This document shows positions 6,519 to 9,785 of a stretch of DNA of 47,385 nt, piece by piece. The notes below the pieces were generated by a model. The model searched no databases. It had not been told where the DNA came from and saw only the letters and a program-made list of their open reading frames with translations. This DNA is from Syntrophus sp. PtaU1.Bin005 (GTDB taxonomy: Bacteria; Desulfobacterota; Syntrophia; Syntrophales; Syntrophaceae), in the NCBI GenBank assembly GCA_002067745.1, contig MVRU01000016.1, positions 1-47,385 on the forward strand, read 5' to 3'. A program made the position numbers and the translations under genes. Numbering within the stretch: the stretch's first letter is position 1; each line of letters starts with the position of its first letter.

Positions 6519-7178
6519 TTACAGGATGATGAATCGCTGAATGTACCGAACGGCTTCTTCGGGATCGTCGGTAATCCGGATAAGGTCAAGGTCTTCGGGC
6601 AGGATCATATTCTCCTTCAGCATCGTGTCGCTCATCCATTCCATCAGGCCTTTCCAGTAGGAACTTCCCAGCAGAACGACGGGAAAACTTTTGATGCGTC
6701 GAGTCTGAATGAGCGTCAACGCTTCAAAGAGTTCGTCCAATGTGCCATACCCTCCGGGAAATATCACGTAGGCCACGGCATATTTTACGAACATCACCTT
6801 GCGGATGAAGAAGTATTTGTAATCAATGCTGACATTCGAATAAGGATTCGGCTTCTGCTCAAAGGGCAAACGGATATTCATCCCCACGGATTTTCCGCCG
6901 CCTTCGGAAGCCCCCTTATTGGCTGCCTCCATCACGCCGGGTCCGCCGCCCGTGATCACGCTGAACCCCTTTTCCGCCAGGCGCCGCGACAGGTATTCCG
7001 CCTGCTGGTAGCATGAATCCCCCGGCTTGACACGCGCAGAACCGAAAATGCTGACGGCGTTTCTCAACGTGGAAAGCTCTTCGATGCTTTCTACAAATTC
7101 GGCCATAATGCGGAATATCCGCCATGATTCCTCAATCGAAAGGGCATCTACAAGATACTGCTTCTCTACCTTGGCCAT
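6519..7178 (-). CDS. LOG-family protein (TIGR00730 Rossmann fold), probable nucleotide 5'-monophosphate phosphoribohydrolase
   Basis: The two family signatures are present: GGGPGVMEAANKGA (phosphate binding) and PGGYGTLDELFE (catalytic Glu). LOG proteins cleave the N-glycosidic bond of nucleoside monophosphates; plant and some bacterial members activate cytokinins, while many bacterial ones recycle nucleotides. The substrate cannot be told from sequence. Start ATG 7178 (MAKVEKQYLVD, 219 residues) is preceded closely by GGAG; the frame stays open to 7262 but that part looks non-coding. It lies downstream of rpsU on the same strand with holA next, possibly in one transcript. Confidence 0.86.
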   Translation of the reverse strand: MAKVEKQYLVDALSIEESWRIFRIMAEFVESIEELSTLRNAVSIFGSARVKPGDSCYQQAEYLSRRLAEKGFSVITGGGPGVMEAANKGASEGGGKSVGMNIRLPFEQKPNPYSNVSIDYKYFFIRKVMFVKYAVAYVIFPGGYGTLDELFEALTLIQTRRIKSFPVVLLGSSYWKGLMEWMSDTMLKENMILPEDLDLIRITDDPEEAVRYIQRFIIL

Positions 7179-7272
7179 AAACTCCACACCATGCCGAAAT
7201 AAAGCTTTCCTGCAGGACGACAAAGGCGATTGCTCATGCGGTGAAAACCCCGCCTGCGTCATTTTTACAAAG

Positions 7273-7293
7273 ACACAATGGAAAACCCTGTGT
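7273..7293 (-). terminator. Weak hairpin after rpsU
   Basis: On the minus strand ACACA pairs with TGTGT, with an inner GG/CC pair and a TTTT loop, followed by CTTTGT. The U tract is poor, so termination is probably partial. Confidence 0.3.
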
Positions 7294-7336
7294 TCAGCCG
7301 TTACTCATCACAGCAAAGGGACGAATGAACTTCCGC

Positions 7337-7528
7337 TTACGCGCCTCTTCTTCTCTGGACCTTCGCAAAGCGGCGCCGCGCTTCAATGGCCTTCCTCTTG
7401 CGCTTTACGGATGGCTTCTCATAGGCCCTGCGGACTTTCAACTCCTTGAACAGCCCACTTTTAGAAAGCTTGTTTTTCAAAATCTTCAAGGCCTTTTCCA
7501 CATCATTGTCGAACACTTTAACTTCCAA
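7337..7528 (-). CDS. rpsU: 30S ribosomal protein S21
   Basis: Small basic ribosomal protein needed for initiation on natural mRNAs. The 63 residues (starting EVKVFDNDVEKALK after the initiator and ending in an Arg-rich tail) match the family over its full length. The start codon is TTG at 7528. The minus-strand sequence AAGGAGAT (7534-7541) is well placed for it, and no in-frame ATG lies nearby; an ATG 5 bases upstream is out of frame. Confidence 0.95.
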   Translation of the reverse strand: MEVKVFDNDVEKALKILKNKLSKSGLFKELKVRRAYEKPSVKRKRKAIEARRRFAKVQRRRGA

Positions 7529-7547
7529 ATCATATCTCCTTCTATCA

Positions 7548-7575
7548 TTTATGGATTTTCTATATATTGGTTCAA
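7548..7575 (-). promoter_or_regulatory. Candidate rpsU promoter
   Basis: Minus-strand TTGAAC (7570-7575) and CATAAA (7548-7553), 16 bases apart, lie about 20 bases upstream of the rpsU start. Both hexamers match the sigma-70 consensus only in part. Confidence 0.35.
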
Positions 7576-8279
7576 ATGATACCTCGTTAACTCCTTACTC
7601 TCCCCCGGGCTCGAGTCCCTGAATGACCGCATCTCAGGAAAAGCCCAAACAAGGGCGCGGCCACAAGAAATGTACCGGCGCGTCATTTCAGCTCCCTATC
7701 GAAGGCATGCTTTGCCGTCGATTCTGCCAACGCTTCAAGCTACGACTCGTGTCCGCCTGCAGTGCCGCTGCCATACCTTCATTGAAATTCTGGAACTGGA
7801 ATTGCGGGAAAAACAGAAGACTCTTATCTTATTTCGTTTAAGCTTCGGAGCGATGGACGGAACCTGAAATTCAATAAGACTCAAGCGTGAAAGGTGGATT
7901 CAAGACATTTAAGACAAAAAGCGGCCAACCCGCTCATATCGGTAAAAGATCTTACCGAATCAAATGCCCCATCAACTAACCCTCCGTCTCTGTTATATAA
8001 AAAAAGGGCAGCACGGATCATGATTTCTCATGCCGTAAACCACCCTTTGCTTTTACCAATATGTTTTACCACACTCCTTACTGGGCAACTCTGCCTTTAT
8101 TGAATATGAAAAACCCTTCGCAATCTTTTTAAATCATCTTTTTAACATAACGAGCGGACTTCGCAATCTTCTCTCAAAAAGGAACAGGCTAACGACAAGA
8201 TAGATGTTTTCTATACGCAATATTGCTTCAAATTGCAACCTAAAAAATTTGAGTCACCCAAAAAATATCAGCACCGCAA
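7576..8279. other. Gene-free stretch between rpsU and the GcvH-like gene
   Basis: About 700 bases without a convincing gene. Short open frames on both strands lack family resemblance and good ribosome binding sites. The half next to the GcvH-like gene (about 7900-8280) is clearly more AT-rich than its surroundings. It holds a 12-base direct repeat (CTTCGCAATCTT at 8116-8127 and 8159-8170) and a strong minus-strand terminator at 7999-8045. A non-coding RNA or a long 3' UTR on the minus strand is possible. Confidence 0.6.
7999..8045 (-). terminator. Rho-independent terminator, minus strand
   Basis: Minus-strand stem elements GGG/CCC, ACGG/CCGT and CATGA/TCATG enclose a GAAA loop (read on the minus strand), followed by seven T (7999-8005). 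It lies 235 bases after the GcvH-like stop, so it ends either that transcript or a separate RNA. Confidence 0.75.
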
Positions 8280-8672
8280 TCAATCCTCTTCCTGGGCAAT
8301 GTAATCCTGATAATCCCTGATCTCCAGAAGATCGTCCAACTCCTCTGGATCTTTCATCTCAATCACCACAATCCACCCGGCATCGTAAGGATCACTGTTC
8401 AGAATGGTCACGTCATCCAGAATGTCCTCATTGACATTGACGATTTCTCCCGACAGGGGTGAAACCAGCTCAAATACGTCGCTTGCAGACTCGACCGTCC
8501 CGAAGGGTTCATCCCTTTCAACAAAGATATCCCCCTTGGGCAATTCGACCTCATCCACATCTCCAAGCTTTTCCTGGGCATACTCTGTAATACCCAGGGT
8601 AGCCATATTGCCGTCAACGGCCACCCAAATGTGTTCGCGACTATAAAGAAGATCATCCGGAAACATTTTCAT
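8280..8672 (-). CDS. GcvH-like protein lacking the lipoyl lysine
   Basis: The length (130 residues) and sequence match the glycine cleavage H protein over the whole fold: LLYSREHIW, GITEYAQEKLGD, the SPLSGEIVNVNE hairpin and the C-terminal LLEIRDYQDYI. In the standard protein the lipoylated lysine lies in ES-V-K-A. Here that stretch reads ESASDVFELVSP, and an ungapped alignment puts Ser64 at the lysine position, so it cannot carry lipoamide there. No gcvT, gcvP or lipoate ligase is nearby; it follows an M24 peptidase gene by 24 bases. It may be a GcvH paralogue with a scaffold or regulatory role. Function unknown. Confidence 0.85.
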   Translation of the reverse strand: MKMFPDDLLYSREHIWVAVDGNMATLGITEYAQEKLGDVDEVELPKGDIFVERDEPFGTVESASDVFELVSPLSGEIVNVNEDILDDVTILNSDPYDAGWIVVIEMKDPEELDDLLEIRDYQDYIAQEED

Positions 8673-8696: not shown

Positions 8697-9785
8697 TTAT
8701 AAGACCAGCAAATCTTTCGGCATTTTTGTCAGGACCTCAGCCCCGTCCTCACGCACCAACACGGTATCTTCGATTCTGATTCCCCATTGACCGGGAAGAT
8801 ATACTCCGGGTTCTATGGTTATAATCATCCCCTCGGAAAGAACCGTGTCGGTATTCCTCGATACCCTCGGAGCTTCGTGAACCTCCAGCCCGACGCCGTG
8901 GCCGGTGCCGTGGGTGAAATAGGAATCCAGGCCGTATTGAGCCAGGCAAGCCCTTGCTACATGATCAATGCGGCTGCAGGTGACGCCGGAGCGGACCTCA
9001 TCCAGAGCCCTGTCATGAGCCTCCTTCACTCTGGAGTATATTTCCCGTTTCCTGTCATCCGCAGATCCCAGGCAGAAGGTGCAGGTTTCATCCGAGCAAT
9101 ACCCATCGACGACCGCACCATAGTCTACAACAACCAGATCACCATATTCCAGGATTTTTCGACCGGGTTTTGCGTGGGGCAAAGCGGCATTGGCTCCTGA
9201 CGCCACGATCGTTTCAAAGGCCATTCGTTCCGCCCCCGCCCTCTTGGCCCCGAAATCAATCTCCAGGGCAAGATCAAGCTCAGACATCCCCGGACGAATC
9301 CTTCGGGACACGGCTTCCAGCACACCGGCGGACAGCTGTGCAGCCCGGCGGATACAGGAAATCTCCCGATCCTCCTTGACCGCCCGAAGCGAATACAACT
9401 CTTCCGACAGAGGCGTCAAGTTTTCTTTTCGAAGCCGCTCCGCCAGCTTCTGATAGAAATCGTAACTCACTGCAGAGGCTTCGAAACCAACAGGATCTTC
9501 CACTGCCCGGTCCAGAACGGCTACGATGCCATCCACCTTGTCCTGATAGCAATAGATATCGGCGCTTTGAACTTCCTCCTGCGCCTGGGTCACGTATCGT
9601 CCGTCAACCAGCAACGTGGCCGCTTGTGGTCGAACCACCAGCACCCCGTCACTTCCGGTAAATCCCGTCAAATAGCGGATATTATGCAGGTCAAAGAGCA
9701 GAAGCGCTTGAACGCCGCCCTGGAAAAAGCGTTTGGAACGCAAGCGGGACAAACGGATTTGATAATCCTTCCGTTCAAAACGCAT
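8697..9785 (-). CDS. pepP: M24-family Xaa-Pro aminopeptidase
   Basis: Creatinase-N domain (about residues 1-135) followed by a pita-bread metallopeptidase domain. All five dimetal ligands are visible: Asp221, Asp232, His296 (GTGHGVG), Glu325 (TIEPGVY) and Glu339 (RIED). The family removes N-terminal residues before proline in the cytosol. At 362 residues it is the short form (PepQ/YqhT-like); aminopeptidase P and prolidase cannot be separated with certainty. The start overlaps the end of the TPR gene by 11 bases, suggesting coupling. Confidence 0.9.
   Translation of the reverse strand: MRFERKDYQIRLSRLRSKRFFQGGVQALLLFDLHNIRYLTGFTGSDGVLVVRPQAATLLVDGRYVTQAQEEVQSADIYCYQDKVDGIVAVLDRAVEDPVGFEASAVSYDFYQKLAERLRKENLTPLSEELYSLRAVKEDREISCIRRAAQLSAGVLEAVSRRIRPGMSELDLALEIDFGAKRAGAERMAFETIVASGANAALPHAKPGRKILEYGDLVVVDYGAVVDGYCSDETCTFCLGSADDRKREIYSRVKEAHDRALDEVRSGVTCSRIDHVARACLAQYGLDSYFTHGTGHGVGLEVHEAPRVSRNTDTVLSEGMIITIEPGVYLPGQWGIRIEDTVLVREDGAEVLTKMPKDLLVL

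Follow-up and report, generated by a model that had tools for sequence, protein, structure and literature searches.

A GcvH-like protein of Syntrophus that has lost the lipoyl lysine and may be retained for a cofactor-independent role

The stretch of DNA analysed here (the window, 47,385 nucleotides of Syntrophus sp. PtaU1.Bin005) encodes a GcvH-like protein in which the lipoyl lysine has been lost. The protein is not simply a glycine-cleavage GcvH with a recent lysine loss, since it belongs to an orthologue family that is mostly lysine-bearing and in which residues handling the glycine-cleavage intermediate are absent family-wide. The explanation that we favour, with moderate confidence, is that an old carrier working outside glycine cleavage has repeatedly lost its modification and would survive in a role that needs no cofactor, probably protein binding. 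The source genome (G000) measures 2.9 Mb and is 99.6% complete, and the relevant features of the window are the following:

8280..8672, minus strand: GcvH-like protein of 130 aa with the H-protein fold and no lipoyl lysine (ORF with ATG start, GCV_H profile, AlphaFold2 model)
8481..8483, minus strand: AGC codon for Ser64, where GcvH has the lipoyl lysine (phmmer alignment, codon read)
8697..9785, minus strand: Xaa-Pro aminopeptidase-like gene, here pepP (Peptidase_M24 and Creatinase_N), 24 bp upstream of the gcvH-like gene
7263..8279, no strand assigned: stretch downstream of the gcvH-like gene, on the side where most relatives have a LipM-like transferase; contains the bS21 gene
7337-7528, minus strand: bS21 gene, 63 aa (PF01165), 97-100% identical in two congeners

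The product matches the Pfam GCV_H profile over positions 1-120 of 122 (E=9.3e-34, 116.4 bits), exceeds the cut-off of the NCBIfam GcvH model PRK01202 (129.6 vs 117) and just misses that of TIGR00527 (115.8 vs 115.85). Its matches among solved structures comprise 14 distinct sequences, each of the 14 bearing the name H-protein or glycine cleavage H-protein. In particular, pea H-protein (1dxm, identical in sequence to 1htp) is aligned by phmmer with E=3.6e-27 and without gaps in the hairpin, where Ser64 faces the lysine of the pea ESVK motif (ESVKA in GcvH). The AlphaFold2 model, built from a 15-row alignment, has a mean pLDDT of 91.7 and superposes on pea 1htp with a TMq of 0.94 at 0.8 Å, and the H-protein fold is thus predicted with confidence.

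An earlier note on this DNA had described the protein as GcvH-derived, devoid of the lipoyl lysine and without gcvT/P nearby. The full-length profile match and the AGC codon bear out the first two points, and a GcvP search of the whole genome of the window gave no match. A local sequencing error at the site codon was rejected as very unlikely, because all three copies found in the genus lack the lysine and do so by two different residues (Ser in G000, Asn in G001 and G002). Misalignment was rejected as well: the phmmer alignment is ungapped, and a scan of residues 56-75 in all 11 lysine-less orthologues described below found no lysine. The check for a second canonical gcvH in the genome, proposed in the same note, was run and returned none. 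The other GCV_H match in G000, on contig C147, scores 22.5 bits, just above the cut-off of 22.2; it was rejected as a canonical gcvH, being a 69-aa ORF with EAMKMEMP, which we take to be a biotin-carrier domain motif.

Orthologues were collected by searching 155 genomes of the class with the window protein and accepting matches of at least 133 bits, one per genome. They were obtained from 134 genomes, the lowest at 133.1 bits, and the match listed after it reaches 109.5 bits; the window protein itself follows pepP and scores above this paralogue gap. The site residue is lysine in 123 orthologues and differs in 11, namely Ser in G000, Asn in G001 and G002, Arg in G012, G013, G021 and G096, Ala in G115, Asp in G117, and Gly in G118 and G119. 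No orthologue was found in the other 21 genomes, some of which are incomplete. The genus was sampled by G000 and three more genomes, one of which (G003; 93% complete, 580 contigs) gave no match to the window protein. Lysine is very probably ancestral at the site, as it is present in all of the best 15 loci outside the order from a search of 395 genomes of the phylum, some of which resemble canonical GcvH more than orthologues. With Asn in the congeners and Ser in the window, a codon path from AAR (Lys) over AAY (Asn) to AGY (Ser) can be proposed. A different irregularity occurs in G008, G009 and G010, where one residue is inserted right before the lipoyl lysine (ESSAKGVVEL, ESVEKATVEL and ESAEKSVAEL, respectively) and the transferase gene adjoins.

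The usual gene order in the class is pepP, gcvH-like, LipM-like transferase and often then hisC. A transferase gene recognised by PF21948 lies beside the gcvH-like gene in 113 of the 134 loci. Three full-length neighbouring transferases were assigned by Pfam to PF21948 (LplA-B catalytic), and none of the NCBIfam models exceeded its cut-off for these three. The Cys of a CF..P motif, which we take to be the nucleophile of LipM-type octanoyltransferases, is invariant in the 109 of these 113 neighbours whose match exceeds 200 aa. Of the 113 genomes with the neighbouring enzyme, all but 14 show no other PF21948 match, so that this enzyme would have to serve canonical GcvH too, directly or by relay, wherever the genome has one. 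According to the available part of PMC10332631, LipM has been proposed to act only on GcvH, though its range may be much broader. Since most relatives combine the lysine with a position directly before the LipM-like Cys-transferase gene, an ancestral role as octanoyl/lipoyl acceptor is probable.

Both the adjacent transferase and the lysine, which occur together in 111 of the 134 family members, are absent in G000, G001 and G002. Downstream of the gcvH-like gene in the window, a transferase pseudogene was considered and rejected, the best tblastn match (E 0.003, within 7001-8400) being unconvincing. The same search for a transferase remnant across the entire 17-kb loci in G001 and G002 gave best values of 0.001 and 2.2e-4, from short, scattered and equally unconvincing matches. 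An apparently non-coding segment at about 7801-8146, between rpsU and the gcvH-like gene, is 79-81% identical in two congeners and has no Rfam match at gathering thresholds.

On the other side, pepP lies immediately upstream in 127 of the 134 loci, among them all 11 that lack the lysine, whether or not the transferase gene is present; in the window, the two genes share a strand across the 24-bp gap. This arrangement would suit a non-covalent accessory of PepP, such as a subunit for its regulation or assembly. We regard this narrower version of the favoured explanation as unlikely. Gene order can persist passively, however, and seven loci have no pepP hit: upstream sequence is shorter than 0.7 kb in G098 and G108 and amounts to 1.4-1.5 kb in G107 and G138, but to at least 3.9 kb in G004, G106 and G139. 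PepP is the only candidate partner that the data offer, a weak guess from gene order.

The family was then compared with H-proteins of glycine cleavage at the residues that handle the intermediate. E. coli residue numbers were carried over through the HEW and ESVK motifs. The equivalents of Glu-14, Ser-67 and Tyr-70 each occur in 0 of 134 family members, lysine-bearing or not, as against 31, 30 and 29, respectively, of 31 canonical GcvH proteins (the 30 strongest matches in the class plus L006; the third G002 copy, L007, was excluded). The Glu-14 site is I, V, T, A, M, L or F in all 134, and the Glu-12 and Asp-68 sites are acidic in all 134. In simulations of the E. coli H-protein, as given in the accessible portion of PMC7733448, the aminomethyl-lipoate arm is kept in place close to Glu-12 and Glu-14, and on its release it passes Ser-67, Asp-68 and Tyr-70. 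The same source reports that Ser-67 variants remain active, some more so, and Ser-67 alone therefore decides nothing. Judged by these residues, the protein was probably no H-protein of glycine cleavage in its lysine-bearing state either. Excluded L007 (G002:C28:21038-21385) is itself a second odd GcvH-like protein, with the lysine present (ETIKATFG) and Phe at the Glu-14 site; a LipA gene and a PF21948 gene lie at distances of about 2.8 kb and 3.7 kb, respectively.

The genes for making and using lipoate were searched in the genus with profiles (LipA, GcvP, PF21948 and E2) that gave matches in 10 to 13 of the 14 genomes used as controls. In G000 and G001, neither the PF21948 (LplA/LipB) nor the GcvP search gave a match, and the search for lipoyl synthase, which covered LipA, gave nothing above cut-off (weak matches at 1.9e-6 and 5.9e-6); no E2 was found in the four genus members. 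G002 has GcvP, LipB and LipA elsewhere in its genome, yet its orthologue of the window protein carries Asn. The main text of a proteomic study of S. aciditrophicus (PMC4992975) contains neither "glycine cleavage" nor any word starting with "lipo". Across the class, a PF21948 match is absent in six of the 11 lysine-less genomes (G000, G001, G013, G021, G118 and G119). Loss of the lysine is not always tied to missing lipoate genes, since LipA and a transferase are both present in the lysine-less G002, G012, G117 and G096.

The lysine is absent in 9 of 18 loci without a neighbouring transferase and in 2 of 113 with one (Fisher p=9.9e-8, kinship ignored), three loci that end at a contig edge, all with Lys, having been set aside. 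The two exceptions that keep the neighbour are G096 (Arg) and G115 (Ala). Conversely, nine genomes keep the lysine without the neighbour (G120, G122, G125, G127, G133, G135-G137 and G145), and seven of them (G120, G122, G133, G135, G136 and, by elimination, G137 and G145) have no PF21948 match above cut-off; candidate readings for these seven are that the loss is recent, that the assemblies are incomplete or that another loader serves them. A quick LG+G4 tree of GcvH-like and PepP proteins, computed with the hairpin columns removed and accompanied by long-branch warnings, gives by parsimony six changes of the lysine and seven of the neighbour. The position of G012 beside the Syntrophus rows on this tree may be an artefact. 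The independent pairs that differ all point in the same direction and are too few for significance (median p 0.25 and 0.5), so that the link between lysine and transferase is suggestive and not proven.

The gcvH-like gene does not evolve like a dying one, though its hairpin is somewhat relaxed. Indeed, dN/dS (NG86) for the three congener pairs is 0.036, 0.047 and 0.056 at dS near 1, the lowest in a comparison of eight genes that includes it; the second most constrained gene lies at 0.062-0.068 and pepP at 0.12-0.16. At the protein level, the three congeners are 90-91% identical in the GcvH-like protein and 72-79% in the neighbouring PepP, and the reading frame is intact in all three species. 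Such strong purifying selection makes a retained function of the protein well supported. The scaffold or regulator that the earlier note offered as a possibility is plausible. A relic, a one-time lipoyl carrier whose function went with the lipoylation genes and which decays slowly, would account for the joint absence of lysine and neighbour in several lineages. It would also account for the hairpin of the 11 lysine-less copies being, on average, less identical to the Lys-family consensus (0.53 vs 0.68, kinship ignored). It is nonetheless very improbable in view of the low dN/dS and the intact frame, and outside the hairpin the drop is smaller (0.68 vs 0.76, kinship likewise ignored).

Slightly less credit still is given to the proposal that the hairpin bears another group, on Ser/Asn or elsewhere, through an unknown enzyme: the hairpin frame E61, L69, P72 and G75 is kept in lysine-less copies, but the lysine has six different replacements (S, N, R, A, D and G), some without the usual attachment chemistry, and no modifying gene is recognised beside the gcvH-like gene in Syntrophus. 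A still-working, lipoyl-independent part in glycine or one-carbon metabolism, for which the passing of the PRK01202 cut-off might speak, is scarcely credible given no GcvP in the genome, no lysine and no aminomethyl-arm residues in the family.

The explanation of an old carrier outside glycine cleavage that kept a cofactor-independent role can be laid out as a sequence of steps. The ancestral lysine-bearing protein would have been an octanoyl/lipoyl acceptor loaded by the neighbouring transferase, and perhaps an entry point for the lipoylation of other proteins. In the lineage of the window, the neighbouring transferase is gone, the lysine would have drifted along the codon path given above, and the folded, presumably unmodified protein has been kept by purifying selection. 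That the protein persists in several lineages from which anchor and loader are missing suggests a second job that needs only a folded surface; this job would require the fold and not the cofactor, and most likely consists in binding a partner protein. The role may be dispensable, as no orthologue was found in 21 of the 155 genomes, some of them incomplete.

A broader proposal, which we put forward only tentatively, is that a second, cofactor-independent function of the H-protein fold is ancestral to the class and is unmasked when lysine and loader are lost, leaving a pseudo-carrier that could be an accessory subunit of a PepP-type peptidase. Such unmasking would have occurred about four times by parsimony on the quick tree, three of which are forced by well-supported branches. 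The family thus offers a repeated natural experiment, in which the anchor of the swinging arm and the neighbouring gene for the loading enzyme are missing in several lineages and the protein is retained, and it would separate the role of the H-protein fold from that of the cofactor. It also carries a warning for annotation, as models may call such proteins GcvH (PRK01202 is passed here) in genomes without a glycine decarboxylase match.

Among the open-access literature matches listed, we recognised no account of a GcvH-like protein without the lysine from this group. Two existing NCBIfam models match the protein weakly and far under their cut-offs, NF045810 GcvH_rel_desulf (37.6 bits, cut-off 150) and TIGR03077 not_gcvH (65.8 bits, cut-off 144.05). 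The protein resembles pea H-protein 1htp in its whole fold and length and in its Pfam family; it differs from H-proteins of glycine cleavage in lacking the lipoyl lysine, a gcvP in the genome and, family-wide, the equivalents of Glu-14, Ser-67 and Tyr-70. LbpA of sHdr sulfur oxidation is another GcvH-like protein that works outside glycine cleavage and has a loading enzyme of its own. As stated in the accessible part of PMC6067878, the lysine is retained in all 95 aligned LbpA sequences, which also have two strictly conserved Cys, except for some from archaea. The window protein, in contrast, has neither the site lysine nor any Cys, 112 of the 134 family members are Cys-free, and none of the seven scanned neighbours is an Hdr gene. 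The relatives encode a lysine-bearing GcvH-like protein beside a Cys-bearing member of the LplA/B family, as in the Bacillus-type LipM/GcvH octanoyl-acceptor step (available text of PMC10332631), but transferase and lysine are both gone in the lineage of the window, and octanoylation of the family members is putative. A pseudo-carrier of the kind proposed would be comparable with pseudoenzymes.
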